From positions 53,970,859-54,034,858 of the forward strand of contig CM059575.1 of assembly GCA_030386875.1 (NCBI GenBank): a DNA stretch of 64,000 bases, in the 5' to 3' direction. How positions within the stretch are numbered: the first letter of the stretch is position 1; each line of letters opens with the position of its first letter. The stretch is from Morinoia aosen (taxonomy: Eukaryota; Arthropoda; Malacostraca; Amphipoda; Talitridae). Made by a program: the position numbers and the translations under genes. Positions 44,845 through 64,000 of this stretch are shown here, piece by piece. Below the pieces are notes generated by a model that was given only the letters and a program-made list of their open reading frames with translations, did no database searches and had not been told where the DNA came from.

Positions 44845-45863
44845 TTGTGAAATGAACTGAAAATATGTATTGCGAGTAATTGCGTAATTTAATTTCATCC
44901 TTTAAAACAATAACCAGCTAATATATCATAAACTCAATTTTTTTCGAAAAATTTCATATTGCTTTTTTTACCTGATGTGTAATTTTGTACATCTAGCCTA
45001 GTTCATATAGTTCTGAAGCACACTGTATGTATAAATACTTATGTTGCTAGCTCTATGATTCAAGTTACGTCTTCCACATTACTGTTGGAGAAGAATATAG
45101 CCTAGTTTGAAGATGATATTTTTGTTGGCATTCCCATTTCGAAGCCTTTTTTCTAACCATAACCATGTTTTTTTGACCTATTAAATCATGCACGATTTAA
45201 TAATAGTATTTTGTACTATCGAAAATGAACTTAGTTAATGTTCATTTTGTCCTTAAATTATATCATTTTACAGTTACTTATAAGTGATTTCTGACAATCC
45301 TTAAAACTAAATACTCGTATTAAAACATGAAAAATAATTTTTTCGATGAGGCTTTGTTATTTACCTAATTTATATTAATATTTTCTAAATATTTAACCTG
45401 GTTATACCCTTTCTTTTCCTTAACGGGAAATGATTTTTGGTGTCAGATGCAGTCGACGCAAAAATATCTGCGATAAAATGATAGCCGTCAGACTCACCGT
45501 GCCGCTTAAGTTAGCCATTTGTGTGGGATCACGCCTACTTTATCTCGCCTCGTAAATCCATGAAGTTTTTTCACGTAATAACGCTCAGAAAGACAGAAGC
45601 AGAATCAAAGTGAAAAATTGGATATTTGTAATATGAGTGTGAGTTGAACTCCTAAATATTGGATTGCCTTGTGACGATCGTCATCTTGTAGAGTGACCTA
45701 GAAGTTTTTTGCGCCCTGGACACAAGTCTCTTGCATTGAAAAAAAGCATATGCTTACTTCTACGCATAAAATTTTAAAATAAATATTTATTTCATAATTT
45801 TATGTGCGTGCTATGGTCTCCAAGGTGTTTTGATTTACGCTTGAGCCGTATTGTTGAGAGGGG
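44845..45863. other. No gene recognised
   Basis: AT-rich unique sequence with no frame over 60 codons and no element ends seen. Confidence 0.5.
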
Positions 45864-46055
45864 ACCCCTCAGGGGAGTGCAACTATTGCATCTACTGGAA
45901 TTACAACTCCCACGAGGAAAATGTGAGGTCCCGAGATAAAGGTTTGGTAAGCCGGCATTTTGTTGAAATGGAAATATTTTTGTGTGTTTTTAAACGGACC
46001 ATCTTTTTTTCCCTTCACTGCTGTCCTGTTTTCAGTACCTACTACTTTATTACTG
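45864..46055 (+). repeat. Interspersed repeat family, copy A
   Basis: Starts ACCCCTCAGGGG, then GTGCAACTATTGCAT, GGAATTACAACTCCCA, a purine-rich GTGAGGTCCCGAG, then ACGGACCATCTTTTTTT and a T-rich tail with TTTTCAGTACC. The three short stems of the family head are kept (see the finding). It is truncated at the 3' end. Confidence 0.8.
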
Positions 46056-46124
46056 AATATCTTCGGTAAATATTTACGACCGGACCCTAATCGATTTTCA
46101 TATATTTGTTCCGAGTAGTACGTT

Positions 46125-47015
46125 AATGAGATGAGAATAAACAACTTTTCTTTAATGGAATTTTCATCGCAAATGAGTATTCAATGAGTAATAGCAATAT
46201 GAAACTGCAAACAATTCGAATGCCGCGAGTGACGTCATGGCTGCGGTGCGGCGAGTGAAATCATGGCTGCCCAGATGTGTACTTATCATTCGCGTAATCG
46301 AAGTTTCTAGAACAGTCGGTATTTTATAGCAAAAAAATGATGGATCAATTGCATTACGAGGTTAGTAAAATGGTTTAAATAAGATTACGATATTTGTGAA
46401 GGAGAGAACAATAATCGATTTTTTAATTTTTGGTGCTTGATTAGTGGTAATTAGATCGAAATAAAATTTGTTTCTTCTAAGCACTTTCCGTCGCAAATGA
46501 TATTTAACGAAATATAGCTGTAGGTTAACTACCGCAATTCTATTCTTTGAAGCGCTGGAAGAAGCGGTTTGAGGGGAGGACCCTTAATGGACTCTCCCTT
46601 CCGACGGCTGTAATGCGCTCGAGTGATCGTTACTTTAGGTTACTTTGCTCTAGGCCTCTCTAGGTTACATTAGCTTAGTTACGTTACATTACGTCACCGC
46701 TATAACTCGTTAAATACTCATTTAAGATGGGAAGTGCATAGAAGAAAAATTGTTTAAATAGATCTAATGACCTACATTCAAGGACCAAAAATTGGAAAAT
46801 CGTTTATTGTCCTCTCCTTCACATTCACCAAGCTTACCTAAAAATACCACACTTACTTAAAAGTTCATTCCGGCCATGAAAACGAATATTAAAATACAGC
46901 TTTAACACGCTGAATACTGATTCACGACGGAAAGTGCATAGAAGAAAATTTGTTTATTTCCATCTCATTACTTTTGTACAGCAACAGAAATTGGAAAATC
47001 GATTAGTGTCCGGTG
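46125..47015. repeat. Nested inverted repeats
   Basis: Four arms of one sequence family face one another. Outer arms lie at about 46125-46190 (AATAAACAACTTTTC, GCAAATGAGTATT) and 46905-47015 (complement). Inner arms lie at about 46390-46525 (GAACAATAATCGATTTTTTA ... GCACTTTCCGTCGC) and 46680-46825 (ACCGCTATAACTCGTTAAAT ... AAATTGGAAAATCG). About 155 bp separate the inner arms. No transposase frame is present. Confidence 0.75.
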
Positions 47016-47467
47016 GTAAACAAAAATCACACCTTCTTTCAAGAACATTCTCAATTTACTGTTTCTTGTGAATAGATTAGCGTTAGAGCAACAGAGCTGA
47101 ACAGGGCTCCATCGAGAACACCTAGCGATACGTGGTACGTAAGTTACAAGGACCGTTACGTGGGGTGGATTTTTAATGTGTGGATTATTTTGCATATTTA
47201 ACCCGTTGGGTGCGACGCGACCCACCGGTGGTCATTGAGGGGGTTTTCTTTATGCTGCCAACCGACCAGCAGCCACCGACTCAATTTTCATAAATGCTTG
47301 ATGAAAATCAATAGAGGCAGGATCTATTTAATGTTCGTTACATTCAAAATGATCTCTAAAAATAACTTTAATGTGAGTTGGATATTTAACTTCAGTTTAA
47401 CCCGCCGCACTTTGCATATTATTATAATAACATCGGCTAAATTTCTATTACATATCAAGCTATTACA

Positions 47468-48505
47468 TAAAATGGTAAATGTTGAGGACTTGACCATAAT
47501 TGATTTTCGAATTTTCAATGCCGTAATAATGTGAATGACATGGAAATAAACAAGTTTTCTTCAATGCACTTTCCGGTGGAAACGAGTATTTTAAAAGTTA
47601 TAGCGGTAAATGAGGTAACGTAACTCCAGTGTTCCAGGCGGGGAAAAAATATACCGCGCGGTCCGACGTGAAAGTAAACAGGCGTTGCCGCGCGCCAACC
47701 AAGCCGACTTCGCTAGAAAAAATAAAGAAGAGAAGCAAACCCCCTATTACAAACGTTAAGAGGTTGGGTCGTGAGGGCTAGCAACAGTTCTTTTAGTGGA
47801 AATTATAAAGAAAGGTTTTAACCGACCCACTACGTCGAACCTTCGACGTATCTGAGAGCATTCAAATGAATTCGTTCGGATCGACAAATGTACGTCAAAC
47901 GTTCGACGTATCTGAGAGCATTCGAATGAATTCGTTCGGATCGACAAATGAACTCGTCATCTCAGTTTTTATACTAATGCATACTAGAATTTGACTTTAT
48001 TGATAATTCTCACTAAAAGAACTGTGGCTACCCCTCACGACCCAACCTCTTTACGTTTATAATAAAGTGTTTACCGCTGCTTATAAAGTGTTTACCGCTG
48101 CTTCGACGTCACTGGCATCCCTGAGATGACGGTATATCGTCGGTTCGACGTATGTGGGAACTTTCGAGTTAAGTCTTTCGCATCGACAATATAACTCGTC
48201 ATCTCATTAATTATGTTTATGCATAGTAGAATTTCAATTCATTTCCAATTTTCACTAAAAGAACTGTGGCTATCCCTCTCGACCCAACCTCTTTACGTTT
48301 GTAATAGGGTGATGCTTCCCTTATTCATTTATTCCCGCCTAAAACACTGGAGTTCCGTTAACTCATTTACCGCTATAACTTTTAAAATACTCGTTTCCAC
48401 CGGAAAGTGCATTGAAAAAACTTGTTTCTTTTGATCTGATTAGCATTATTTAGGCATCGAAAATTCAAAAATCAATTATGGTCAAGTCCTCAACATTTAC
48501 CCATA
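47468..48505. mobile_element. Inverted-repeat element, arms about 170 bp
   Basis: The left arm, 47468-47642, runs GTAAATGTTGAGGACTTGAC to ACTCCAGTGTTCCAGGCGGG; the right arm, 48335-48505, is its close complement. Shared blocks include GGTGGAAACGAGTATTTTAA and AGTTATAGCGGTAAATGAG. The arms belong to the same family as the nested repeats to the left but are much better preserved. The interior of about 690 bp is a second repeat structure. No coding capacity was found. Confidence 0.82.
47741..48310. repeat. Inner inverted-repeat element with 60 bp tandem duplication
   Basis: Ends: CCCCTATTACAAACGTTAAG at the left and the complement of CTTTACGTTTGTAATAGGG at the right. Shared interior motifs include AGAGGTTGGGTCGTGAG and AACAGTTCTTTTAGTG. 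Inside, a 60 bp unit containing TTCGACGTATCTGAGAGCAT and GAATTCGTTCGGATCGACAA occurs twice in tandem (about 47831-47949). A block of about 103 bp from CGTCATCTCA to CCTCTTTACGTTT occurs at about 47956-48058 and again at about 48197-48299. ATAAAGTGTTTACCGCTGCT is also doubled (48062-48103). Confidence 0.82.
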
Positions 48506-48894
48506 AAGTTTTTGGAAATAGATGTGATATACATTCATTTTACTTTTTCATTTCTGACTGAATCGATATGCGCTATTCTCTAGCTGAAGGCTTAGTCTCG
48601 TGCGGGCAGGTGGAATCCTCGCTGAGAGAATCGTTGGTAATATACTTATTTTTTTTTGTAGCAGCGTAAAGTTTGAAATAAACTTGTTCATGTGTTTAAT
48701 CATACGGATACTTATTTCATTTTTTTTAAATGTGAAAATTGGTAATTATTTTTCTTCATCAGTACGCATTTGCGTTACAAGTACTGATCCTAGTGTTAAA
48801 CCTTATTTTTCATGAATGTGGCACAGGGGAGACTGTTACATAAGATACCTCAGCCATAGATAGACTTTCGGGGCTTTAGCTTTCGTGCTCAATA
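48506..48894. other. No gene recognised
   Basis: AT-rich sequence between the inverted-repeat element and the next repeat copy; short frames only. Confidence 0.5.
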
Positions 48895-49110
48895 TGCTTC
48901 TTCGACTTTTCATGGATTTTACGCTATCTCTTCTCTGTTTTTACTTCATCTTCCTTCCTAACTTTGTGTTTGTATTCGCTTAATATCATGTGCGGGAAGA
49001 TATTTCGTGCATAGATTCTTTGTTGCCTACGGTCCATACTATCTGGTCCCTTCTCATTGCTCTTGTAATATCGCCTATGTTTCGGCTAGTGAGTCTAAAC
49101 TAATTGATCT
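48895..49110 (+). repeat. Interspersed repeat family, copy C (diverged tail)
   Basis: The 3' half only: CTTCTTCGACTTTTCATGGA, GTGTTTGTATTCGCTTA, TGCATAGATTCT and GAGTCTAAACTAA in family order. The head module is lost. Confidence 0.5.
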
Positions 49111-49918
49111 GTTGGAAATGGTTTCAAAACTTACCCCTACGAATACCGTACGCCCAAATGCAGATGTAATCTACGCGTAGAATTTATACTCACAATTCCT
49201 AAGGACGTGCGTTCATGACATGACGGTCTTATGAGACACTCGTAACAAGCATTAGAGATAATACTGAAGTAAGGTGTTCAGTTCCTGTGTAACCTCGTTA
49301 GCGAAGTAAATGCTAGAACATTGGGCCATATGAGAAGCTCCTTGCTTTAATTTAAGGTAATATTGTGCCACAGTCTTGAGTGTAACCGCAATAGCAGAAG
49401 GGAGACCAACCTGGACGGGTTTATTCTCCAGCTCGCGGGTGCAGTTAGCTTAGGCTGTAAATGCGGCACTGCTAGTGACGATGGCTGCATCTCGGCCTGG
49501 AGCATCCGACTCTGCAATCGGAAGGATCAGCTGTTGGTTTGGAACGAAAAAGTGCCTGTAATTCCTGGGGCTGCGTTGGGGTCATAGCTTCATAACGTTG
49601 CGAAGAGCTGGTAGGGATTAGACACCTTTCCATCCTGAAAAAATGGCTAGGCTCGTTTTACGAATTAAGTTTGTACTACACCAAAATGGTATTAGAAAAA
49701 GGCGTGACAGATGAGCAATTCATTGCAATTAAGATGGTAAACACAATTTGTTGCAGTATTTCATTTTTATACTCAGACACACGCGCGAGCAATAAGGTTC
49801 GTCCATCTTATGCAATGGGGTCTGACACCCTTAGAGGGGATACTGTTGGGTAGCCCCAGGTATACTGTAGATTGGCTTTTGAGACTTCTATATCTTTCGT
49901 TTCCACTTTTTTTCTGTT
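49111..49918. other. No gene recognised
   Basis: The segment at 49820-49860 (CACCCTTAGAGGGGATACTG) may be a decayed family head. Other frames are short and without a motif. Confidence 0.45.
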
Positions 49919-50280
49919 CCCTCAGAGGGGGTAAAACTATTGTATCTATGGGGATTAATACTCTGAGGGATAATATATGAGGTCCTGAGTTTAAGGGTAG
50001 GTAGGCCTTCCTGTGTTGAAATAGAGTAGGTTTTTTATTTTGTTACGGACCGTGTTTTTTCAGTTCATTGTGTTATCTTGTTTTTCAGCACCTTGCACTT
50101 TTTCTTCAAGTTTTATCTTTTTTCAAAAACTTTGCTCTCATTTTACTGTTTTTACGCACCTTGTACATTGATTTTGTGTTCGCTTAGTGCATAATAAATG
50201 GTGCATTCTTCCTTCCTCTTTTTGGAACGTCTTTGTCGGCGGTTAGGGAAGCTTAAACTAACATTTAATCTGAATTTAAT
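49919..50280 (+). repeat. Interspersed repeat family, copy B
   Basis: Near full length: CCCTCAGAGGGGG, AAAACTATTGTATCTATGGG, ATGAGGTCCTGAG, GTTACGGACCGTG, TTGTTTTTCAGCACC, CTTCCTTCCTCTTTTTGGAA and GGTTAGGGAAGCTTAAACTA, in the same order as copies G and J. Confidence 0.85.
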
Positions 50281-50480
50281 ATGAATTTTATTTCTTCTGT
50301 TTTCATACTTTCTTCTCTACCTACATTTTCATTGTCTGTTTTTCCTCTTCGATATTTTACGTTGCTATGCGAAAAGTATTGTGTCTGGGAATATACTTTT
50401 TGGTTAGATTTCTTGTTTTCTACATGCCAAACTAAATGGTTATTTTTCCTTCCTCTATAAAATCATTTTTGCAGTGGAAA
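50281..50480 (+). repeat. Interspersed repeat family, copy D (diverged tail)
   Basis: Directly follows copy B. Recognisable by GTGTCTGGGAATATAC, CCAAACTAAATGGTTA and TTTTTCCTTCCTCT, the 3' part of the family; the head is absent. Confidence 0.5.
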
Positions 50481-52700
50481 CCGAGCCTTAGAAGAACTAC
50501 TATAACAATGAAAATACAAGCTGGTTAAGAAGAACCGTGCGTGGAAGGTAAAAGAGAGAATTTTGGAAATATGTTACAGAAACTTGCCAGCTCTAAAATA
50601 AAAAATGAAAAGGATACACACACACGATGCAGGCACACCGTTTTCTCTCCTTAAAAAAAGCCTGGAGCACAAGACCCCGTGCCGCTAATTAGCGGGCTGT
50701 CAGCGCGGCGTGTGGGATGCAATTACTGCCTTGTGTTGGCGGGTGCCCGCTGGTGTGGTCTTGTGACCTACGCTCCCGTGCCCGTGCGCTCTCTCACAAA
50801 ATAAGGCTTCACTCTAATGAATCCTCAAATTCACACACAAGCGAGTATTTTTGATACAGACTCTTTGATGCGTTCCTTCCAGAACATAAATTTTGTCGGC
50901 ATTCGAATTATTTGTGTCGTTGAAGATGTTAATGAATCTGGTGCAGAGACCTTCGGGTGGATTTGGGGGAAAATGTTCGATTTTAAGAATTTTGTATGAG
51001 AAGACTCGTAGTTAATTTAGAATGGAAATAACGACATCACCGACTCTTTGAAAGTTAACTAAAAATTAAATCTAATTGTTTCTGCCCTTTCAGTTGCACT
51101 TTTTACTTTTATTTATACCGGAATTCGAATTTGAAGCTAGGTATTGAGATTGCCGTAAGTCATAACACTACATTTCATTTCAGATTTTATTCATAAATAA
51201 TTTCTATCATTTACTTCAAGGTGATGCCGAGTGAAGGCAATAACATGTGCAGGTTGCAGTAGCAAAAGACGTTATTTTTGCTCCTCCTAAAAATACAAGT
51301 CGAGTGCGTTGTTGTCCCGAGAAAAACGCTGCAAAGTGTGACGTGATGATGAGTTGTTATTGGAAAACATCGTAGTCTTCGTAGCGCGAGTAGCTAAGCG
51401 TTACTTCAGTTCCGTGAAGGTCATGCATGGTGTTCGATCCCTGTACGACTAGCTCAGGCAGTCTCCATCAGTCTGTGCAGACACTCGGGTTAAAGTCACA
51501 AACAGAAAAGACGGGTAGAAAAGGTAAGACGAGGAACTCCTCTACTTATTTAGTTGCACTTCACTCGCTCAATCATCACTCTCCTAAGTGTGAGAAGCTG
51601 AGAAAAAACCTGTGCGACTCAATTCGTGCAACCCGAAACGAGGCGAGCAATGTTTTCGAGAAATATAGTATCTACGGGAATTGAGTTTTTTTGTTGGCTG
51701 CTTACGAATGTGTTCCATTGTTTTTTGGTCTTTTGAGCATGTGAGGTAATCTTGAGTAATACAAGTAATGCCTTCTATATTGTAGATTTGGTTACGCATA
51801 AAAATTGTGACAGCACAGTTGTGGTTGGAAATTTCCTGCCATTTATGATGAATGAAGGGGCGAAATTAAGCTGGCTCCCATCTATTGTTCGTTCCACATA
51901 GAAATGGGCTGACTAGGTTTTAAAAAATCTTTGGAGGTATGCAGTGATACTCTTTCTGTCAGATGAGTGAATGAAAAACGTTGTTTGTCGTTTTTCTTAT
52001 GCGACAGAAAATAGAAATATATTCGAGCTGGGTATTGGTCCGGCATTTTCGTTCAGTATTACATAAAACACTTTTAACTGATCTAGTAAATTTTGCATTC
52101 GCGTGTATTCTGACGTTAGAAGTTTAGGATCCTCTATTTATCACTAGTGCGTGCGAGTGAATTTCTCTCTTCACGCTGATGCTATACAACCAAAGCCTGT
52201 AACATTTACTGGCCTGCTCATAGAAATAGAGGTCGAACTAGCGGTCCGAGATTTTGCAAGGCTCAAGCTGAGTTGAAGCAGGGAAATTGAGTTAGCTCCA
52301 GCCTATCGCTGATTTCCCATAGAACGGGGCTGACCAGGGGATCGAAAATCCTAGTCAATCTGCACCGATGCTTTCAATTTCGAATAGGTGATTAAAAAAA
52401 TCCATTTTCTCTTAATTACTTCACACATGACAACAAATAACAAGGTAATTGGACTTGCTTGGGTCGTGCATTAACCTGCGTCAATATTTAAAGTAATAAA
52501 ATATTGAGCCGACATATTTTCTTACAACTTTGGTAGATTGTGGTCGTCATATTAACGAAAAGCATTGTTCACGCCCGGTTATATGTCTGACAACTGCATC
52601 GCTATGTATCTCTTGGAATGAAAGCCTTCGGGGCTGCTCTTTGAGCGCAGGCAATGCCTCTCATATTTCTGCAGGGTTGATAGATGTTCGACTTGGCAAC
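50481..52700. other. No gene; a diverged direct duplication
   Basis: Two similar segments lie about 410 bases apart. 51870-51980 has GCTGGCTCCCATCTATT and ACATAGAAATGGGCTGAC; 52280-52400 has GTTAGCTCCAGCCTATC and CCATAGAACGGGGCTGACC. Their order and spacing agree. No gene was recognised elsewhere; a GC-richer patch near 50660-50800 has no long frame. Confidence 0.5.
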
Positions 52701-52870
52701 CCCCTCGCGCGAAAACAACTATTGTGGCATTGAAAATTGCCGCTCCCATAGGGAACATGTGAGGTCCTCAGCCTGAAGTTGGGTAAGCTTTCATTTCCTT
52801 GAAGTAAAGCAGGCCTTTATTTAGGTACGGACCGTTTTTTATGTTCACTATTATGCTATGTTATAGCACT
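52701..52870 (+). repeat. Interspersed repeat family, copy E
   Basis: CCCCTCGCGCGAAAACAACT, GCCGCTCCCATAGGGAACAT, GTGAGGTCCTCAGCCTGAAG and GGTACGGACCGTTTTTTATG follow the family order. It is 3' truncated. Confidence 0.75.
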
Positions 52871-53036
52871 ACAGAGTTCATAGATAATTTAGAAAAAACG
52901 TAAACTACAATGAATTGAATTCTTTTTGTTTCATCATTTTCACAACTGTTGAAATAGGTTTTATTTTAATAGATGTGTGATTGGGATTGTTTTTGTTGAA
53001 TTTTCAGTTCATCTATTTGTACTATCTTTTTCTAAG

Positions 53037-53430
53037 GTCCCTTCAGAGAATACAATTTTTTTATCAGTGGGAATTAGCACTCCAAGGGGGAAATGCGAGG
53101 CCCCGAGCTGAAGCTTGGGTTGGGCTTTGCTTCGATGTACGTAGAGTAGGATTTTCGTTAGGTAACGGACTCACTTTTTGTTTAGTCCACTGAAGTCCTG
53201 TTTATAAGCACATATTTCTTTCTTGATGAACTTTTGCCTTGTTTCATGAACTTGCTTCTTAACTTCATGTTTCTATGCGCAGGGGACCTTGCGTGGGAGC
53301 AAACTTTGTATGTAGATCCTCCTATTCCGTTCACTTGACGCTAACTGGCGTCTTCTGCCTTCCTTTCTCTGGAACTCGTTGGTTATGGTATTCGAGGCTC
53401 TATACCAACTTGGTAAATCTAATTCTAAGC
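53037..53430 (+). repeat. Interspersed repeat family, copy F
   Basis: TCCCTTCAGAGAATACAATT, GTGGGAATTAGCACTCCAAG, GCGAGGCCCCGAGCTGAAGC, GTAACGGACTC, TTGTTTCATGAACTTGCTTC and TCTGCCTTCCTTTCTCTGGA. Full length but diverged. Confidence 0.8.
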
Positions 53431-54530
53431 TTGGTACATGAACAATGAGGCCACACCACTGATGTTAACATTAGTGTCAAATTTTTGGCAGTCAAATTTC
53501 ATCATACTGTGAGTTATAAATAAAAACTTGTATAAAGATATACGGAGTCCTATAGAGTTAAATTATTCGACTTTTTCATTGTATATTTTCTTATCTGTAT
53601 ACGACTGAAATGAGGGAATCCCAGTTGATATGTGATACATTAAACTTGAAATATCCTGGCCTATGTCTGCGTGTTTTTTAATGATAATGTCCTGTTAAAA
53701 GAGATTTATGTCGGTCTGTAGACATGTGCTTAAATTTTTTACAGTGTGCTAAACTTTGATGATTTATGGAGACCTATCTTGTATAGGACCAACAAAAAAG
53801 GAAAATGGGCTGAAAACACTCTATCTTATATAACTCTCGCGTTGAGCTGTTGAACTGTGGACCATAAGCGAATGCTGTAGCTAGAGAATGTTCGAGTGCA
53901 ATATTTCCTTATTATAAATACTCTAATTTCATGGCGCAGGCTAATGTTGTGCGCAAACAAGCGCGATTACACATCTATGTTCTGTCGTGTCAAACAAAAT
54001 GATGAGAATATGAACATTTTATTCTCTTTTCGACAGAAGAGTATCACTATTTATCTACAGAGATTTTCTAAACCCTGGTCAGCTCCGAGAGAAATCAACG
54101 TAATATTTGAGCTAACTTAATTTTATTCCGATTCATCACAAATGGCGAGAAATGTCGGACCACTAGTGAGAGCTCCATTTCTATAAGCAGTCCTAAAGAT
54201 GTGAGAGGCCTTGGCGCAGGCGACAGCCGTAGTCCGCGGCTTTCATCGGAGATTACATTTTGAGTAGTTTTTTCCCCGAGAACCTCCCATCTCATGTAAC
54301 ATGCTTAGTACCTTCGTGGTAACTCCTAGCGTGAAGTCAGAATATGTTGCCCTGGGAATGTGAGTGGAATTAGCAGGGACTCAAGGCAGTTGGCTGCGCC
54401 GCCTGCATGGCGGTCTGCTGCGGCGATTGACTTGGCATTTGCACAGCTTCCAATGTTTCCTTTAGTCGAATGTCTGGCTTCATTTTATACTATTGAGAAA
54501 GTACGATTGTGAGTGAGACAAATTCAATCA
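53431..54530. other. No gene recognised
   Basis: AT-rich sequence with short frames; no element recognised. Confidence 0.5.
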
Positions 54531-54890
54531 CCCCTCAGGGGGATACAACTATTGTATCTATGGGAATTAGCGCTCCCAGGCGAAAAATGTGAGGGCCCGA
54601 GCTGAAAGTCAGGTAGGCTACTTTTTTGTTAAAATAGAATAGGTTTTTGCTTTGTTACGGACCATCTTTTTCGGTTCACTGCTATCTTGTTTTTTTCAGC
54701 ACCTACTACTTTCTTCTTCAACTTTGATCTTGTTTCATGAACTTTTTTCTCATCTTACTGTTTCTATGCCCTTTCTGCATAGATTCCGCGTTCCTTTTAC
54801 TACATACTAATTGGTACCTTCTTCCTTCCTCTCTTTGTATCGCATTTGTTGCTGCGGATAGGGAGGCTAAAACTAACGACTAATCTAATT
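54531..54890 (+). repeat. Interspersed repeat family, copy G (well preserved)
   Basis: CCCCTCAGGGGGATACAACT, then ATTGTATCTATGGGAATTAG, CGCTCCCAGG, GTGAGGGCCCGAGCTGAAAG, GTTACGGACCATC, TTCAGCACCTACTACTTTCT, CTTCCTTCCTCTCTTTG and GGGAGGCTAAAACTAAC. The head is nearly identical to copy J over about 50 bases, indicating recent relatedness. Confidence 0.88.
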
Positions 54891-54929
54891 TAATTCAATC
54901 ATCACTAACGGTTGCGCTGTATTGACTTA

Positions 54930-55272
54930 GCAAGGTGAAAAAGAGAGATCCCGATTTGAAAGTGATTTAGGTCTTTTTGTTGAAATCGAATGTTTTTTTT
55001 GTTAAAGACCATCTTTTTTTGGATCACTGCCGTCTTTCTTCTAAGCACATATCACTTTCGTTTTCAAGTTTTATCCTGATCTATGAACTTCCTTCAAGGC
55101 AAACGGTTTTAATGCGCAGAGGATCGATCTTGTGTGGGAACTTAATTGGAGTATAGATTCCGAGCTCGCTTGACTTCATACTAAATTGTGCCTTAATCCT
55201 TTCTCTCGTCGGAACACTTTTCTTTTGATTAGGGAGGCCTAAGCTACTTTATAATCTAATCTTATTAACGTA
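54930..55272 (+). repeat. Interspersed repeat family, copy H (headless)
   Basis: Begins inside the head near GCAAGGTGAAAAAGAGAGAT. It keeps AAAGACCATCTTTTTTTGGA, AGTATAGATTCCGAGCTCGC, CATACTAAATTGTGCCTTAA and GATTAGGGAGGCCTAAGCTA. It lies 40 bases after copy G in the same direction. Confidence 0.78.
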
Positions 55273-55440
55273 ACCAGATACAGTCTAATTCTTTACGAAC
55301 AAATCCACCAGCGAATTTAAAAGAGTGAGACCTGTTAGCCTTCGTTAGCTTTATAGCTACTTAATTCTTTCAAATTTTAAATTTTTTCCTTCAGGCTATT
55401 AATTCCTTAGCGCTCTACCTGGAATTATTCCTTCCTCGAC

Positions 55441-55752
55441 TCCTCAGGAGAATAAAACTGTGGTATCTATTGGAGTTAGTGCTCCCACGGGGGAAATTAT
55501 GAGGTCACGATCTGAAGGTTTAGTAGACGTTCTTTTCCTTGAAATCGAAAGGGTTTTGTTATGTTACGGAACAATATTCATGGTTCCCATGCATCTATTT
55601 TTCTCAGCGCCTGTTACTTTTATCATAGACTATAAACTTCGTTCCTGATTTGCTTTTTCTATACCCACGATGTTAGGCCACACTACGTACGTGCAAAGAT
55701 TCTCCGTATTTTATACCCCTATCAAATGGTTCTCTTCGCTCTCTTGAGATCG
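55441..55752 (+). repeat. Interspersed repeat family, copy I
   Basis: CCTCAGGAGAATAAAACTGT, TTAGTGCTCCCACGGGGGAA, ATGAGGTCACGATCTGAAGG, ATGTTACGGAACAAT, TTCTCAGCGCCTGTTACTTT and AAATGGTTCTCTTCGCTCTC in family order. Confidence 0.8.
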
Positions 55753-57132
55753 CCCTATCTCTGCCGTCTCGACATCCTTCGAGGAGAGCCTCGTTTCTTC
55801 CCGGATAAACCTCGTTGCAAATCTTTTACTCTGAAATGTTTACGCTCTTTGAAAGCAAACGCACTTGTGGTTTTGGTTATCGGGAGAGAGGCATCGGGAA
55901 GGAACAAAAAACTTGCCTTTCTCCTAATTTCCTCTAAAAGTACTTCCATAGCCGGCATCCATTTTGTAAAACGTCGTTGTTTTCGTAGAGGATTCTCCTA
56001 ATTATTGAACACCTACCGTTGTTGAGTTATGACTGCAGTTAGTTTCTAGTGAATGATTTGGTAGAATATAAAAGAATTTAGAGTTATCCCGAACACTCGT
56101 TGAGTTGCTTAATCAAACTTTGCAGTTTGGGACTTCTTTTGTTCACACCGCACGCTCCTGTAGCCTGGAGCGGCTCGTGTCCCCCCACGAGACCTGAGTC
56201 AGACCGCCAGCAGCAGCGCTCTAATGTGACTTGATCGCTCCCCTTTCAAACTTGATCGCTTGAAAGCAGGTAAAAATTAAAATTATTCGATGCCCTGATC
56301 ATTTGTTGGCTATCGGGAAGCTTAGAAATTAACAAAAAAGTTAATTTAGAAATAGTTTTTTCTAACTTTTTGCTGCGTTGTTCAGTGGCAGTTAGAGCTT
56401 GTTTATCACAATTTGTATCATCATATGATTTTCCTGGAAAACTTGTTACATTTTTTCAGCATACGAAAATACGAGTTTTGCTTCATGAATTGTCGTCTAG
56501 ATTTTGCTACAAAAAAAAAATTCCGTAACACAAAGGACCTGTTTCGGAGGTGTATGCTCCTGCCTCGGTTCGCACGTACAGAAAGTATTCATATGAACCA
56601 TGTCCAAATGATATATCCTCCAGCCTCATTATGTTTCCGCTCACATGCCATATAATTGGCTCAAATGTTCATCTTTGGTTTAACAACATATGTCTTCTGT
56701 TGTTAAGTGAAGAAATGCGCACTGTCACTGTGCTGGGTATATTCATTCTTGACGGACTGTTATCGGAAGACATCACGGATATTCAACAGTGACACAGGAT
56801 TGATTATTCAATAATTTGTGAAACTTGTCAAAATAAACCTGCACAGTTATGTTTATACTCTGTCTGTTTTGTCGTACACAGCGGTACATGACATTTTTCT
56901 TATTGATGAATAGTGGGCAACATTCGCCATTTTTCTCTGTTTTTGTTAACGTTCATGTTTCTCTTCCATTTTAGATTTTACTGAGTGCAGTGATTTTATT
57001 AACATTGGAATATTACTGAGTGAATCAAATTATATTAGTTTCAAAAGACAGCAAGTCATAGTTGAAATAAACTGAGTGAAGTGACGCAATCGCCTCACAG
57101 TGTGTATGCATTAGGACGAGATAGCGAAAACT
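55753..57132. other. No gene recognised; possible upstream region of the exon at 57.2 kb
   Basis: A GC-richer patch at 56140-56240 includes CAGCAGCAGCGC. The last 200 bases before 57132 have no clear TATA box. No transposon end was seen. Confidence 0.4.
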
Positions 57133-57240
57133 GTGAAGTGGCTTGAACTCTCGACGCGCCGCGCTGCCGCTCGGTCAAGTGTTCAGAGTCAGAGAAGACA
57201 AACTGTAGAGAGGAAGGAGACTTCCAGAGCAGCCAGCACC

Positions 57241-57326
57241 ATGTCCGGCCGTGGGGAGGCGAGTGAGGAAGGCAACCGAGCGTCTTTGGTCAACCTCTTC
57301 CAGTCGAAGCTCCAGTTGCCTCTGAT
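57241..57326 (+). CDS. Candidate first coding exon of an unknown host gene
   Basis: An ATG in a good context (CAGCACCATGTCC) opens MSGRGEASEEGNRASLVNLF followed by QSKLQLPL. The frame meets a textbook splice donor, GAT|GTGAGT, at 57326/57327 (split codon). The surrounding 57120-57310 is more GC-rich than the flanks and free of repeats. An ATG at 57133 in the same frame would add a basic Ser/Arg-rich leader, which I think is untranslated. I do not recognise the protein. No downstream exon could be linked; a Harbinger element begins 530 bases later, within the would-be intron. It could be a chance frame. Confidence 0.42.
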
Positions 57327-57860
57327 GTGAGTACCCAGCATTGAGTCGCTTCGCACTTGTTCTAACGTCCTAAGTACTCCAGCCTAATGCCGAGAGGTCC
57401 ATATCTATGGTCTGGGCCGGCTTTAATTTTGTCGTGCATCTTTAATTAATCTCGCTTTTGTTTCCAGGAGCATAAGCATAGTCTGAGCAGTTGTTGACTT
57501 CAGTGATTCCCTAGTGCTTGTAATGTTAGTAGTTCACGTTCAGCGTTCAACTGTTCATAACTTGAGTAGAAGTCGATGACTTGAGTGTAATATTGGCTTT
57601 GTATTTGTCTTCAAGATATCAAGCTACCATCGTATGTCTAACTGGCTAGGCCAATCTTACGATACCCACCATATTCACATTTATTTTCCTTCACATTGAA
57701 AATTCCATTCTCCAGAGCATTATTACGTAGCTGAAATAATTGCTCATTGAATAACAGTCTCGTTTTCTCCTTGAAATTTCATTCCTGTAAACTACGCGAC
57801 TTGGATCTGCAAGTGTACCTCACTTGCCTGGCACGTGTGAGAGTTATGGCTCCCCATTAA
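57327..57860. other. Possible intron start; no gene recognised
   Basis: AT-rich sequence after the donor site; nothing recognised before the Harbinger end. Confidence 0.4.
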
Positions 57861-57988
57861 AGGCCCCCATACATTGGACGATATCAGGTCAGGCGTCAGG
57901 TCGCCTGATGCCTGACAGGAAGGTAGCGCTCTCCATACATTACACGCAACGCATCAGTTCAGCTCGTTGGTTCGCAGTGAGTGATAAG

Positions 57989-58345
57989 ATGGCATCGTCA
58001 TCAGAGTTCGATACCGATGATTATATTGGCATTGCGGTTGCTCTTGGTGCGGAGAAGCGCAAAAAACGGTCTAAGTGAAGCAAATCTTGGCTGCTGAAAA
58101 GAAATGAAATTTCTCATACAGATTTGTTAGAAGAAATTGTAGACAAAAATTTGAATCACAAGCATTCGAAAAAGGACGGACTGCATATGTCACTATGGCT
58201 ATATTTTAATAATGTCACTGAACTTATGAAAATAAATCGAGGTGCATGGGTACCGATATACACCAAATGCCATAGTAGGTACATCAACCTATATATTTTT
58301 TTGATACTACTACTTACCTATTTACCAATGCGACTGAATACCTAA
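57989..58345 (+). pseudogene. Harbinger transposase, N-terminal part with in-frame stop
   Basis: From the ATG at 57989 the frame reads MASSSEFDTDDYIGIAVALG then AEKRKKRSK and a TGA at 58076-58078. It continues in the same frame with SKSWLLKRNEISHTDLLEEI. Acidic start, basic K-R-K-K-R stretch and W-L-L-K-R-x-E-x-S-H-T-x-L-L are characteristic of Harbinger DDE transposases. The TGA replaces what is probably a Trp codon (TGG). Beyond about residue 60 the similarity fades (NLNHKHSKKDGLHMSLWLYF), so a deletion or divergence removed the catalytic D-D-E core. It is inactive. Confidence 0.78.
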
Positions 58346-58488
58346 CTACCTATAGGCCTAGTACGGCTTCACCGTTTAAACTATAAATTATAAAAGTTTG
58401 TTATAAAATGTTGAAATGTCAATTTCAAATAAAAATATGTTAATAACGAATTTAAAAGAGTGAAGTTCTAATTGAAAATGTATTTAAT

Positions 58489-58852
58489 CCCCCTCAGGGG
58501 GATACAACTATTGTATCTATGGGAATTGGCGCTCCCAGGGGAAGAATGTGAGGGCTCGAGCTGAAAGTTAGGTAGGCCTTCTTTTTGTTGAAATGAAATG
58601 TTCTTTGTTATGTTAAGGACCACCTTTTTCGGTTCACTACTGTCTTGTTTTTCAGTACCTCTGACTTTCTTCTTCGACTTTTATCTTATTTCATGAACTT
58701 CTTTCTCAACTTGACAGTTTCTATGGCCCTTCTGCATAGATTCCTCATTCTCTTATCTCCATACTAAATGGTGCTTTCCTCCTTCCTCTCTTCGATACGC
58801 TCTTTTTTTGTTGCGGTTAGGGAGGCTTAAACTAACTTATAATTTAATCTAT
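58489..58852 (+). repeat. Interspersed repeat family, copy J (well preserved)
   Basis: CCCCCTCAGGGGGATACAAC, TATTGTATCTATGGGAATTG, GCGCTCCCAGG, GTGAGGGCTCGAGCTGAAAG, GTTAAGGACCACC, TTGTTTTTCAGTACC, CATACTAAATGGTGCTTTCC and GGTTAGGGAGGCTTAAACTA. It lies inside the Harbinger element, so this copy arrived after that element or was captured by it. Confidence 0.88.
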
Positions 58853-59219
58853 TTTCTAAGATATTTAATCCACCCACCTTTTTATGTTTTTTTTCTGAAA
58901 TTAGATATCAAGAAATGGATTTTCTTGACACAGAAGCTTCTGTCTGCGGTAGGGTGTATTTCTTTAGGTTTTTCAACTGATTTGTCCTGTGTCGATAGTT
59001 TCACATTTTATCGTAATATTCGTGGGACTTAATCTTCCATAAGCAGGGATACGAGTGATATAGATCGATGAATTCACTTTAAACTGCTCGTTTGCAATCT
59101 CCATCCATCTTGATAACACACTACCACTTGAGACAGTGTTGTAAGTCGCCAGTCGGTATGATACACGTTTGAAGTTCGTTTGAAGCTCGTTTAAAACCCG
59201 TTCGGGTACACTCAAAGCA

Positions 59220-60690
59220 TGAACAATATTATATATAATATATGTGTAATTTATACAATATTAACCTGAAGACAAAAATTTTAATCACAAGCATTATACA
59301 ATATTAATTTATACAAATTTATACAAACTAATTATATAATTTATAAAATAATATAATTATATGTAATATATACAATATTATAAATAATAATAATATGAAC
59401 ATCAAAGCATGAACAAGTAATCATGCCGTTATTCTTTATCAAGTGTATTTCTCTGGAAAAGTAATTACAGATGAAGGTTTTCATGTCAGTAAAAACTGCA
59501 AATAGGTTCACACTAGTAAATGCCATCATGACTTGCGTTTTTAGCATTGCAATCTGGCAACCTCGACAGCAGACAACAACCGCGACAAACTGACGCCTGA
59601 CCTGAAACGTTACCACAGACTGCAGGTGTCGTGACCCTCTTTATTTTATCTCGCTGAGGTCACGGTCTTCATTTTTCTCTGCCGTCATTCTTTGTTGCGA
59701 TGCATGATATTTTTCCATGTTATATTATTAGTCGTGACATCAAGATTATTCGTCACTATTCATATATTTTCTACTTGGTAATATAAAGGTAGCTGCCACC
59801 AATTCAGATCTTTATCTGAATGAATATTTAATTCAATCTTCGGTAAGCGTTATGAGCGGCTTAAGGCCATAAATTAATCGTGCATTTTAGCCGTGTTTCC
59901 TGGCTTCAAACATTATTACTTTCCTTCTGAATCATCATGTCCTCTCCTCCTATTTATCTGAGGGTTATTAAAGACACAGGAAATATCAAAGAAATTCACT
60001 ATTGAACACAGGAAAATATTGAGACATTAATCATCGAAAATACGCATTAATTGAATGAATGTGACTTACGCACTCGCAATCCCAACATACTTAGAAGCTT
60101 GAGCGGGGACTCGGATCGACATAATATCAGAGGAAAACTTATCTGAGATTTGGAGATCAGGGCTCGCAGTTTGAACGTCGCCTGGCTGGCGCGCTGTAGC
60201 AAGGTCGCCATGTTTGGTTGAGGGCAGAGAGACCAGGTTGATGGCTGGGGCTATGCCGACAGTTAGCAGTCTAGGTTGACAATCTCTAATTCACGTTATT
60301 GGCACTGCAGTTGAGTATTCTTGAAGTTAATCACTTTCGAGCGAATGAGGGCACAGATATTCTAGGATGGCTTTGAGTAGTGAATTTAAGAGGCAAGCCT
60401 CAGCCCAACTGGACCGGGGTTGATAATTTGAGCTCGTACGTGACCGTTCTCGTTCGTCTTCCTCGCCCGACTGCCGCCGCTCTCTCAAGCAACCGCGACC
60501 GCGTCCAGCGTCACCTTGAGGTGCCAACTCTGAATAACGACCAAACAAGGTTACCAATAAGAACGTGATATATCCCTACTATCAAATAGAAAACATACAT
60601 CATTAACCTTACCCTCATTACTATATAAAAATCCCCACAAAACAATGTTAAACATATGAATTAAAGCAAATGAAGACATCCGTTGAGGTT
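59220..60690. other. Harbinger interior without a gene
   Basis: 59220-59400 is an AT-only tract of TATAATAT-like words. 60100-60570 is GC-richer with short frames on both strands and no recognisable domain. Confidence 0.45.
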
Positions 60691-60691
60691 C

Positions 60692-60961
60692 TTAGCATCT
60701 TCCGTTAGCGTCTTCGTTCGTAACGCGTATCGACGACGTCTGGGCGTTGTTCCTGACGAGTCGACTGTTCTTGAATTTAATGTTGCAATGCTTCCTCGCA
60801 GAAATCAGGCTTATTATTTGGTCTTTTGAATCATTTATGAATAAGTCGTTGGCCGGACGATTATTCAGATCCTTAGCGATATTCCTTACACAGTTATGCG
60901 GAGAAGCATGACACAGGTACGGCTTCATGTACCTATGCTCCGCCCACAAAATATCAAGCAA
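60692..60961 (-). CDS. Unrecognised 89 codon frame inside the Harbinger right end
   Basis: A minus-strand frame starting just inside the right terminal repeat reads MLDILWAEHRYMKPYLCHAS, then PHNCVRNIAKDLNNRPANDL. Harbinger elements often carry a second DNA-binding protein gene (Myb/MADF-like) near an end, and the position fits, but the sequence lacks features I can assign. It may be chance. Confidence 0.25.
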   Translation of the reverse strand: MLDILWAEHRYMKPYLCHASPHNCVRNIAKDLNNRPANDLFINDSKDQIISLISARKHCNIKFKNSRLVRNNAQTSSIRVTNEDANGRC

Positions 60962-61086
60962 GTTTGATGCGCTTCAGGTGCCCTTCAGGTCGCCTGACGC
61001 ATGAACTGAATGGCCCCACACACTTAAGAAAACTGACACTTCACCTGACGCCTGACCTGATATCTTCCAATGTATGGGGGCCTTAA

Positions 61087-64000
61087 TGCAGCTACTCTGA
61101 CCCTCCTGTGCACAGGGTATAGGGAGCCTATTTTGCATTCACACGTGCAAACAGTAGTCCGGATTCCAACCATAAACGACCTTGAAATGTAGAATATCTG
61201 TATTTATTGAGTTAATGTGTCAATGTTTTGATTATTAAGTGAAGGTTTTCCCTTAAAATAGCATTAGATGATTTCTCTGAGTTCGTTAGTTTGGAGAGAT
61301 TTTCTCTACACCGTATACTTGCTCAACAAGTGGTGTATCATACACAAAAATGTTGCGGTCTTATAATTCTCCACACACTCACGACAGCACTTAAATTATT
61401 CATGCGTTCGGTCCCCCACTTCCATTTGAAACCAAGCACTTACTATTAATCCCTCAAATTTAATCGCTGCCAGCATCTTAGTTTCTTCTATCACTAAGTA
61501 ATTCGTATCTTCGTTATCATGGTGTGGTCGCATTAATCATTCACAGTGTTTCTTATCTCCTGTTTTTTTTTGTCGGGCTAAATATTGTCAATTTGTAGTC
61601 ACCCGAAAAACTATCGCTGCTGTCATGCATCTAAGTAATTTGTCGCATTATACTCTCAACAGATGTACTCGTATAGTACGTACTTAAGGCATCTATCGTT
61701 AGTGCGTTGGTTGCCTTTGTTTTTGTTGGTTGATGCTGGCAGGCATTTTAGGATTTATTTTCCAATAATTTTTTTGGTTGGTATAGCCAACAATTTCTGC
61801 TTCTGTATACCTGCACGCATACATGAAGTCATCAGACGTTGATTAATCTATAAACTCCTTAAATGTGTAATGTTCATTACTAATAGTACAAATCAAAAAG
61901 TACAAATCTAGAGAACAGTTTTCTTTCAGATTACCTTAATTTTGCAGGGAAATCTCCCTGCTTTCCACTATGTACGCTTACTCTAAGCGCTAACTTTACG
62001 GGCTGAGCTCCCTGCCTAGCTTCATGAGTGCCTCCCATCTATTGACTTCATCTATTGAGAGGGATGATGGGCCACGAGAGCCGATTAGTGTAACTCGACT
62101 ACAGCCTCGCATTTGCGCGAGACGTAGATACACTTTTCTCGAAAGAATCGGATTAAATCACAGTGTATGCCTACTGTGTTAAGTGCTGACTTACCGTTGT
62201 TAATTTTTGAATGGTCGAAAAGGAACTGAGCTCTTTGGAGGTACTGAGTCCACATTTTCTTCCTGTTATGCGTTCTCATACTCATGCGGCATGATACTTC
62301 TAATCAAGCGGTGCGTTAGAGATTTGGTCAGCTTTGTCGAGAAAAGATTGCTTGCAATGAGCGCGCACTTTGTATCTATGGGGATTGAACTTTCGAGATT
62401 CTCAGAACCATGAAACCTGAGCGTCTCTGCACGGGTACCTAGTTTCAGCAACGGAATCATTCGTTCACCTACAAATATTAAATACTGGTAGTCCCTTCTT
62501 ATAATTTAGTGCTCGTAATCTTACTGAATGACTTTTTTATATTACAAAGTCTATGTTTTAACATCTAAAGTTCAGCTTTGTTGAACGTTCTAGATTATTA
62601 CAAATACTATAATATTCTAGAAAGTTCTATAGTTAGTAAGCTAACGTGGTATAGCAAAAAGCATCACCGTTGATGCGGTATAGTAGTGACACGGCTTGGT
62701 GATACTGACGAAAATCTAGCGCTGATTACTGGAAAAATTTCTTAAATTACAAAAATCGGGCATAACGAAAATAGTTTCAAGTACATAGTTAACCCAAGAT
62801 TGGCCGTGTAATATGTCATCAAGAAGTCTAAGGAATTTTTGTACGGTAGCTAGTTAGCCTGGGTGGTGGGATTTCTTGTATTGGGATTTCGTGGAAAGTG
62901 TCATGCAAACTGCGTCGCGAGGTTAAGATGAGCTCAAAACACTGCATGTAGGATATCGTCCAGGATTTGGGTACGCCAGGTCCGAGAATCAGCTCAAGTT
63001 CCTCAATTCTGAACGCTGCATAAGTAAGAATGGCACACCTTCTGAAAACGACAGATTCACAAGCGATATTTTCTTCTTTTCAACAAGCTTAAAATTCTCC
63101 TGACACTTTCTAGGAGACAGAAAATTGTTTTTCGGAATAAGTAAAAAAAAAATTCAGTTGCTTGGGAAAATAATACAACCAAATTTGACGTTAGAAAAGT
63201 GAGACTTTCCTCATAAATGGCTAAATGTCAATCGACGGCTGAACATCGGAATGGTTACTTGGTGTTATGGAGTTATTTTTACTCAAGTGAAACCCTCCGT
63301 CGAATTAGAGTGGGAGTTATGAATTTGTATGCTATGGTGACTGAATTCGCTGTCTTTTGTGTGGAGTAAGCGGCAACTTATCGCTGTAGCACGTTCTAAC
63401 GCATGCTTGCACGCTACTGTTTTTGTGTCTATTCAGACTGTAAAATAAATAATTTACAGAATATTAGCTCTGTGTAACAAAGGAGAGGTAAAATTGAAAC
63501 CTGTGCTACAAGAATCCGACACTTTTAGCTCCTACTAAACACAACGCAAAAAAACCTTCTAACGGCATGTAACAAACGATGTCGGATGTGCACACCGATA
63601 TTCGTAAATCTACTGAAACGAATATTAGCTTTTCCGCGACTCCATCTACAACTAACTCCTGGTCGATGAAGATATGTATTTATCTGATTGCATAGTTTGG
63701 CTTCCGTAGCAGCCAGTTCGGGTGTTGCCAGTCCACGGCTTGCCAACGTCTATATCATGGTAGACTATCATGGTTTATATGCTATAAGTGTGAAATACGC
63801 CGAAATGCTGTTCACCTGCCCGTAGTCCTTATTGTATCCCATCAGAAACAGGGCCGTCACAAGTCAAATACTCGCGCCAGATCAATTAATGATGAGCGAG
63901 ATTCCAGAAGAGGAACTTTCGACTCTCAGGATGGAATACCTGGTTTAATTGCCAGCTCAGCGACAAACGCCTTCCATTAAACGCTCTATAAAGTTTACCA
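61087..64000. other. No gene recognised
   Basis: AT-rich sequence. 62370-62395 (TTTGTATCTATGGGGATTGA) resembles the repeat-family head, but too little remains to call it. A 73 codon minus-strand frame at 63525-63746 has no domain I know. Confidence 0.5.

Follow-up and report, generated by a model that had tools for sequence, protein, structure and literature searches.

An iterated nhmmer search at E up to 0.05 over both strands of the window, the whole 64-kb stretch of Morinoia aosen DNA analysed here, recovered exactly 10 copies of a repeat, all on the plus strand and all within 45,865-58,861, in agreement with the original prediction of about ten plus-strand copies in 13 kb; the same search found none in the remaining 51 kb. 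Identity of the copies to the local consensus is 62-90%. Ten random points would all fall inside 13 of 64 kb with P ~5e-6, and all ten would lie on one strand with P ~0.002, values which describe a pattern that was spotted first and are not formal tests. The copies, and the transposon that hosts one of them, are:

45,866-46,063, plus strand: copy A, 5' half, consensus 1-199 (nhmmer, alignment)
47,033-47,083, plus strand: copy A, continuation past an inserted element, consensus 196-249 (alignment)
48,908-49,117, plus strand: copy T1, 5'-truncated (nhmmer)
49,919-50,290, plus strand: copy E, full length (nhmmer, TSD scan)
50,297-50,522, plus strand: copy T2, 5'-truncated, immediately 3' of E (nhmmer)
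52,702-52,891, plus strand: copy G, head half (nhmmer)
53,039-53,422, plus strand: copy H, full length (nhmmer, alignment, TSD scan)
54,531-54,891, plus strand: copy B, full length (nhmmer, TSD scan, divergence)
54,931-55,262, plus strand: copy C, damaged head, with B just upstream (nhmmer)
55,441-55,767, plus strand: copy D (nhmmer, TSD scan)
58,491-58,861, plus strand: copy J, full length, within an inverted-repeat transposon (nhmmer, TSD scan)
57,860-61,084, no strand assigned: DNA transposon hosting copy J (42-bp terminal inverted repeats, 98%)

Copy A is a single element that was split by the later insertion of a ~970-bp element with inverted-repeat ends (46,073-46,110 and 46,983-47,020, 84%), its continuation aligning with a score of 25.5 against a maximum of 16 in 300 shuffles. 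Target duplications, which had been suggested as a check, are present at the edges of window copies: copy B, the least diverged, and copy J each have a perfect 10-bp duplication (54,521-54,530 / 54,892-54,901 and 58,481-58,490 / 58,862-58,871, p 0.003 each), copy E has an imperfect one (49,908-49,918 / 50,291-50,301, p 0.011), and copies H and D are flanked by a 7-bp repeat, TTCTAAG (p 0.028), and a weak 6-bp repeat, CTCGAC (p 0.09), respectively. The TSD scan found no target duplication at the edges of copies G and C. The combined p is 1.1e-5 for six copies and 5.8e-5 for all eight tested, T1 and T2 being left out. Copy G has a weak continuation reaching 53,038 (p 0.01), an additional stretch in copy H is common to C and T1 by alignment, and T2 is the most diverged copy in the window (62% to consensus). 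The transposon around copy J is presumably a PIF/Harbinger element, judging by its TAA flanks and a fragment resembling a transposase; a Pfam search gave no match for that fragment and did not identify any gene among the candidate exons of the window.

The family extends far beyond this locus, contrary to its initial description as local. A first look at the genome gave 7,302 candidates, and an exact 50-base head occurs 4,873 times on both strands of the 1.99-Gb genome (2,400 forward and 2,473 reverse) with no genome-wide occurrence of its reversed-sequence control; by a crude estimate the total is perhaps 10^5 copies. The element is ~370 bp long and non-coding, with a fixed 5' end (start identical in 37 of 39 copies) and usually a TAATC tail (TAATC lies close to the 3' end in 34 of 38). 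Of 38 genome copies, a set that includes seven twin pairs from segmental duplication and leaves out the truncated copy L031, 30 have target duplications exceeding the 95% null; the lengths of these duplications are 10-18, with 19 of the 30 at 13-14, and 26 sites are left once identical duplications are removed. We propose, at odds of roughly three to one, that the repeats are copies of a non-autonomous, non-coding retroposon resembling the promoterless SIDEs, whose copies lie in the sense direction in the genes sampled. Such a ~370-bp retroposon, beginning with CCCCTCAGGGG and in most cases ending in TAATC units, would be reverse-transcribed into nicked target DNA by an enzyme presumably supplied by a LINE partner, and reverse transcription of this kind would generate the 10-18-bp target duplications that are read from the copy edges. 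The suggestion of an "undescribed element" thereby comes close as far as the element goes, since the family spreads by insertion and leaves target duplications; five 16-19-base pieces of it had no occurrence in the literature text searched.

A decayed local tandem array, in which a head-to-tail duplicated unit was later broken by insertions, was another of the initial suggestions, and would account for ten window copies on one strand, some of them nearly abutting. We have practically discarded it, because copies occur genome-wide, carry distinct target duplications (15 of the 21 full-length copies tested next to other copies have their own), and in the case of copy J lie within another transposon; the dense loci L065, L068, L071 and L075 moreover have no within-locus non-family repeats of at least 100 bp. 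The insertion footprints and genome-wide spread likewise reject a satellite array. A MITE or other TIR transposon was rejected since visual comparison of the ends, CCCCTCAGGG and ...CTAATC(TAATC)n, shows no inverted repeats, and since the target duplications vary in length (10-18). Head and tail patterns, searched both exactly and in degenerate form, also turned up in one viral and seven prokaryote stretches and were judged to be chance, rescoring of these stretches with the family model leaving only short, weak matches, of which the top one scored 10.9 bits (29 bases, E 0.0028).

SINEs are short, interspersed elements headed by tRNA, 5S or 7SL sequence, with a variable 3' tail and target duplications. 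The family here is likewise short, interspersed and non-coding, with a variable 3' tail and target duplications, but differs in that the defining Pol III-type head was searched for and not found, and a Pol III SINE was accordingly rejected. ARAGORN reported no tRNA genes in the window, and Rfam gave no match at gathering there and, with E values of up to 5 allowed, no tRNA, 5S or 7SL in 45,800-58,900. Degenerate A/B-box pairs are present (76-102 with 143, two mismatches each), yet occur equally in 127 and 107 of 500 shuffles of two consensuses, that is, at chance level, so that the early remark that no SINE boxes or transposon ends were seen holds. Runs of at least 4 T number six and five inside these consensuses. 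Lacking a convincing Pol III promoter, the family resembles SIDEs (short internally deleted LINEs) or other promoterless LINE parasites and not tRNA/5S/7SL SINEs; its defined 5' end and target duplication are also SIDE-type traits. No partner LINE was found in the 297 kb examined. Two of five sub-threshold Rfam matches overlap copies; NEAT1_2 at T1 (E 0.13) and ceN109 on the minus strand of G (E 0.87) were rejected as lying far below gathering.

Among known systems, the lepidopteran SIDE Persaeus, whose LINE is Zenon of the CR1 group, is 263-386 bp long, has neither a Pol III promoter nor similarity to tRNA, 5S or 7S, shows an apparent target duplication, was first found within a DNA transposon and is present in 12 to 115,283 copies per genome (PMC6740152), all of which recalls the present family. 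Persaeus differs in its poly(A) tail and in a known LINE partner that matches both of its ends, whereas the family here has a TAATC-type tail and an orientation bias in genes (PMC6740152). The Drosophila R2 and R2/R1 SIDEs are similarly short and non-Pol III with a precise 5' end and are attributed to target-primed reverse transcription, but they bear a 5' self-cleaving ribozyme and occupy fixed rDNA sites (PMC3414825), whereas here no ribozyme was recognised and the targets are dispersed.

The R2 precedent raises the alternative that the 5' head is a structured or self-cleaving RNA that sets the 5' end, in line with the "structured-RNA repeat" initially envisaged. The three palindromes of the head are above chance as words and stand together in copies B and J; as stems of the family at large they are only partly borne out, CCCC-TCA-GGGG being exact in three copies (45,865; 54,531; 58,490), ATACAA-CTA-TTGTAT in two (54,543; 58,502), and TGGGA-ATTAGCGC-TCCCA in one (54,561), with one mismatch at 58,520 and two or three mismatches in two more. 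The variant GTGCAA-CTA-TTGCAT of copy A is indeed present at 45,877-45,891, but the covariation that it seemed to promise is no clearer than in shuffles: seven heads give 3 doubly changed pairs, equalled by 105 of 500 shuffles, and 63 distinct heads (from 89, near-identical ones having been dropped) give 7 double changes against a shuffle mean of 4.1, equalled by 45 of 500; by three measures 37, 45 and 54 of 500 shuffles reach the observed value. Folding z-scores of +0.58 to -1.81 in seven copies are about as in shuffles, with copy A the lowest and borderline (7 of 200 shuffles equally stable). An HDV-like descriptor is over-represented in copy E (63 matches vs 23.8 shuffled) but in the other five sequences examined it is about as frequent as in shuffles or less so; CTGANGA is absent from all six, and Rfam, with matches accepted to E 5, gave no ribozyme in 45,800-58,900. 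A known ribozyme or structured-RNA family was rejected for want of an Rfam match and of covarying helices, and overall we hold a ribozyme head to be highly improbable, the folds and covariation showing nothing beyond chance and one copy standing apart in the descriptor scan.

The description of the family as directional proved right and recurs at other loci. In 20 loci chosen by hand from 39 retrieved copies (12 plus, 8 minus), 43 of 46 further copies are oriented as the best copy of their locus, three being discordant; with copies of at least 150 bp only, concordance is 36 of 38, and 14 of the 16 loci with such neighbours are wholly concordant. Random orientation across the genome, which had been named as evidence against the original prediction, is what we see globally (2,400:2,473) but not locally (43:3). 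Outside this count, the same 20 loci hold weak family matches (E from 1e-5 to 10), 5 of them in the same direction and 2 opposite. Other repeats, compared between loci as a control, are 38 same to 44 opposite; within-locus direct repeats of other DNA (214:12) were rejected as a control, being mostly tandem arrays. On contig 1, pairs are concordant in 9 of 9 cases below 20 kb, 17 of 25 at 20-100 kb and 21 of 35 at 100-200 kb, and thereafter in about half; adjacent pairs below 200 kb are concordant in 31 of 45 (permutation p 0.008). Orientation agreement fades past ~100-200 kb.

Same-direction queues could also form by self-targeting, with new copies landing in old tails as in the human Alu/L1 CLIQUEs, which show an orientation bias (PMC3215922); copy E directly before T2, and B before C, would fit. 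We find this quite implausible, for the target duplications of the genome copies are not TAATC runs, many neighbours are hundreds to thousands of bases apart, and self-targeting does not predict agreement with the gene strand. The target motif holds only 1.7 bits and predicts orientation at 1.3:1, and was rejected as a cause of direction.

Agreement with gene direction was seen in myosin genes chosen blind to their copies. Five of six held copies, and 13 of 14 matches in their intron pieces are sense and one antisense, two of the 14 possibly being halves of one element; all five copy-bearing genes (three on plus, two on minus) are sense-majority. GH47 and F-box exons, found through proximity to copies and so not blind, each run in the same direction as three copies, making 7 of 7 genes with copies sense (p 0.016). 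Among exon-like ORFs, of which 71 of 88 were kept after dropping those that match other loci, Pfam host domains occur in 2 of the 36 sense ones and in none of the 35 antisense ones. Masked flanks have an AT skew of -0.074 (18 of 20 loci) and a GC skew of +0.037 (16 of 20), a sense-strand-like T>A, G>C composition, while among the myosin introns only 4 of 6 have a positive GC skew on the sense strand. Copies are thus apparently sense in genes, so that neighbours in one gene agree, on a small gene sample with flank composition as support. By extension the window cluster would be one same-direction gene domain; that copies A-D lie upstream of the first inferred coding exon at 57,241 weakens the case for a sense gene covering them.

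Skew of T over A and G over C is also a signature of leading-strand replication, and replicon scale is not unlike tens to ~100-200 kb. Both the flank composition and the range of agreement would hence suit an orientation set by replication-fork direction in place of transcription. We consider this unlikely, since the sense majority in five copy-bearing myosin genes would then need chance or co-orientation of forks and genes.

The best reading is that copies are preferentially inserted, or preferentially retained, in sense orientation relative to genes. Retention alone would mean that antisense intronic copies harm processing, or form dsRNA with sense copies, and are then lost; human Alu elements are known to lose inverted pairs (PMC3215922), and of six poly(A) hexamers scanned in the consensus none occurs in sense and one (AGTAAA) in antisense. 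Concordance, however, does not rise with divergence (11 of 11, 18 of 21 and 14 of 14 by class), copies at least 90% identical to consensus being already 11 of 11 concordant; pair loss by itself leaves the consistent gene-sense direction unexplained; and the Alu effect is weaker, with an inverted-to-direct ratio of 0.38 for adjacent full-length pairs in clusters (PMC3215922) against ~0.07 (3:43, within 10-kb loci) here, the two being measured differently. The T-run with CAG at its end, likened at the outset to a splice acceptor, is real in the consensus, and splice-like scores are higher in sense (acceptor 9.9 vs 8.7, donor 8.4 vs 5.3). Sense insertions should therefore be harmful, which speaks against selection and also counts against the sense-bias reading as such. 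We judge selection without an insertion bias to be rather doubtful.

The bias most likely arises at insertion, and reverse transcription would then be primed from the template strand of the gene. That such priming is all but confined to the template strand in active genes, insertion being strand-specific and transcription-coupled, the great majority of genic copies (13 of 14 matches in the blind sample) being sense and copies marking gene direction genome-wide, we advance tentatively, at somewhat less than even odds. A family whose copies number perhaps 10^5 and strongly favour the sense direction offers a natural test of whether transcription can steer retroposition, and its least diverged copies, already concordant, of whether orientation is set by selection alone; the copies could also be used to mark gene direction in this genome. 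Among the matches listed in searches of the open-access literature, titles and abstract openings gave no earlier report of such orientation or transcription-directed insertion. The human CLIQUEs and Alu inverted-pair exclusion share with this family retroposon clusters of a preferred common orientation, which here tracks the gene strand (cf. PMC3215922). Mammalian intronic LINE and LTR elements are also non-randomly oriented relative to genes, but mostly antisense, which is read as selection against transcript-disturbing sense copies (PMC3088655), whereas the copies here are sense; human SINEs show a sense excess 20-200 bp from exons (PMC3088655).

Iterated nhmmer searches of both strands of all 64 kb, with E-values up to 0.05, recover ten copies of the ~370-bp non-coding repeat (A, B, C, D, E, G, H, J, T1 and T2), every one on the plus strand, and a second model recovers the identical set, in agreement with the original prediction of about ten plus-strand copies. 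Identity to the local consensus ranges from 62 to 90%, and the copies therefore differ in age or subfamily. A common start (CCCCTCAGGGG), exact or within a base or two, is found in seven of the ten and is absent from C, T1 and T2; copy G retains the head half only, and copy A is a single element interrupted by ~970 bp of inserted DNA whose ends are inverted repeats.

Features of the window
11,477-12,319: tandem repeat of a 42-bp unit, 20 copies, crossed by three open frames of more than 200 codons, on both strands
29,183-32,191: LINE open frame of 1,002 aa, encoding endonuclease and reverse transcriptase domains
36,183-37,996: tandem repeat of a 28-bp unit, ~65 copies, 98% matching
45,865-58,861, plus strand: extent of the ten family copies
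46,073-48,501: foldback-like elements with inverted repeats, nested in one another, one of them inserted in copy A
51,661-51,682, plus strand: weak head-like fragment (shuffle p 0.03), left out of the copy count
57,241-57,326, plus strand: probable first coding exon, predicted from its open frame and the GTGAGT donor at which it ends; Pfam gave no match
62,367-62,386, plus strand: weak head-like fragment (p 0.01), likewise left out

Across the assembly (29 contigs, 1.99 Gb, with the window on contig 20) copy B as query returned 7,302 first-look candidates, of which 40 were scored; these represent both strands and comprise B itself, a 99% identical truncated duplicate at 54.15 Mb of the window's own contig, and 38 more at 90-93% identity. 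One 50-base head sequence is present without mismatch 2,400 times in the forward and 2,473 times in the reverse orientation (reversed control 0), and these 4,873 heads, spread over the genome on both strands, contradict the earlier description of the family as local. As this 50-mer is present in only two of 46 further copies lying near the fetched ones, we arrive at a crude total of ~10^5, an estimate resting on those two copies. In pairwise comparison the fetched copies differ by a median of 9%.

The family copies are insertions. A scan of the window copies for direct repeats abutting the element start found perfect 10-bp duplications at B and J, an imperfect one of 11 bp at E, one of 7 bp at H and a weak one of 6 bp at D, with none convincing at C, A and G (combined p = 1.1e-5 for the six window copies with a right end, 5.8e-5 for all eight tested). 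Copy J is nested in a transposon bearing 42-bp terminal inverted repeats. Among the fetched genome copies the 5' start is identical in 37 of 39, 34 of 38 carry TAATC close to their 3' end, and 30 of 38 are bordered by duplications of 10-18 bp (13-14 bp in 19 of the 30), the null being flanks taken from other copies; seven twin pairs that arose by segmental duplication are among the 38, and 26 sites are left once identical duplications are removed. Fifteen of 21 full-length neighbour copies (18 from the oriented loci described below, three from myosin introns) have duplications of their own, and neighbouring copies are thus independent insertions.

As far as tested, the family fails the defining feature of a SINE, since no tRNA gene was found, no Rfam family reached its gathering threshold (45,800-58,900 yields five matches at E up to 5, all sub-threshold), and the A- and B-box-like words of the consensus (positions 76-102 and 143, two mismatches each) recur as a pair in 127 and 107 of 500 shuffled consensuses, about a quarter; the element also contains several T-runs, which would terminate Pol III. 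It resembles Persaeus, described in PMC6740152 as a SIDE of a CR1 LINE, although no parent LINE was found here in 297 kb. In those 297 kb TAATC-type tails occur 26 times at family copies and six times elsewhere, the DNA upstream of the latter six being mutually unlike, and the DNA after the LINE frame at 29,183-32,191 is unlike the family tail. The family may already be catalogued.

We then considered orientation in 20 loci of 10 kb, picked by us around fetched copies, in which the best-scoring copy is on the plus strand in 12 and on the minus strand in eight. Of 46 further copies, 43 are oriented like the best-scoring copy of their locus and three are opposed (36 and two for copies of at least 150 bp), and 14 of the 16 loci having neighbours of at least 150 bp are fully concordant. 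A comparison of other dispersed repeats between these oriented loci, with six introns and the window cluster included, found 38 in the same direction and 44 in the opposite one. On contig 1 orientation was compared for 100 exact 50-mers, the first ones among the 4,873 (45 plus, 55 minus); pairs agree in 9/9 cases below 20 kb, 17/25 at 20-100 kb, 21/35 at 100-200 kb, 26/55 at 200-400 kb and about half farther apart; adjacent pairs less than 200 kb apart agree in 31/45 (permutation p 0.008). PMC3215922 describes queues of human Alu and L1 elements with a common, if milder, orientation.

With flanks oriented by the copy, and the family and tandem repeats masked, AT skew is -0.074 (T>A; 18/20 loci, p 1.9e-5) and GC skew +0.037 (G>C; 16/20 loci, p 0.0023). 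Such an excess of T and G typically marks the sense strand of an intron or a leading strand, and replication polarity is a possible rival cause of the orientation. Undetected family relics could add to the AT skew of the flanks; the family's own GC skew is opposite in sign (-0.09), and such relics therefore do not explain the GC part. A Pfam search for the myosin head gave 79 exon matches, and intron pieces of six of these genes (33 kb), chosen blind to the copies, hold 14 family matches, 13 sense and one antisense, two of which may be halves of one element; one gene is empty. When masked and read in gene sense, these introns have negative AT skew in 6/6 and positive GC skew in 4/6. The density of family matches in the myosin pieces (14 in 33 kb) is several-fold that expected from 10^5 copies in 2 Gb, a total too crude for a claim of enrichment. 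At 4,452-4,780 of one fetched myosin intron (L077) two heads, including the sole antisense match, abut as an inverted pair. GH47 exons and an F-box exon each run in the direction of the three copies beside them, at loci that were not blind-picked, the copies at the latter perhaps lying outside the gene; the gene sample is small, at seven genes. Exon-like open frames match Pfam at 1e-4 in 2/36 sense and 0/35 antisense cases. The shared direction of the window cluster may be explained by analogy with the other loci only, because copies A-D are located upstream of the exon at 57,241, which is itself a prediction.

We lean, short of proof, towards an insertion bias as the source of the orientation. 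Across 16 positions at 26 sites the target motif amounts to 1.7 bits, a weak preference from which just 1.3:1 would be predicted on these flanks. Among copies with 90% or more identity to the consensus concordance is 11/11; it is 18/21 between 80 and 90% and 14/14 between 70 and 80%, and thus does not rise with divergence. By splice-site matrices, the splice-like acceptor scores 9.9 in sense and 8.7 in antisense, and the donor 8.4 and 5.3; of six poly(A) hexamers scanned, none occurs in sense and one, AGTAAA, in antisense. Intronic LINE and LTR elements of mammals are mostly antisense according to PMC3088655.

The head was originally proposed to be structured, with three short stems; its palindromes are real, and evidence that they represent a conserved RNA structure is lacking. 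Seven heads fold ordinarily relative to their own shuffles (z +0.58 to -1.81, A being borderline), and their three both-sided pair changes are matched by 105/500 shuffles. In 63 distinct heads retained from 89 there are seven cells with both-sided changes (shuffle mean 4.1, matched by 45/500), the share paired is matched by 37/500 and further pair types by 54/500. Pairs slid out of register by one to three columns have more double changes (9-16), the in-register advantage being confined to the share of paired cells. An HDV-like descriptor is enriched in copy E alone (63 vs 23.8), and a descriptor scan found no hammerhead core.

Two pieces of the window cluster recur inverted on the same contig at ~99% identity, ~125 kb from their window counterparts: 54,150,067-54,150,353 matches window 54,500-54,786, with B ending abruptly at its base 256, and 54,151,433-54,151,814 matches window 53,039-53,420. 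These represent either a segmental duplication or an assembly artefact. By visual comparison, seven pairs among the 39 fetched copies share identical or near-identical flanks (L019/L027, L020/L034, L029/L038, L030/L051, L032/L043, L037/L055 and L041/L042); each pair lies on one contig, 0.2-1.5 Mb apart, and represents either segmental duplications or unmerged haplotypes.
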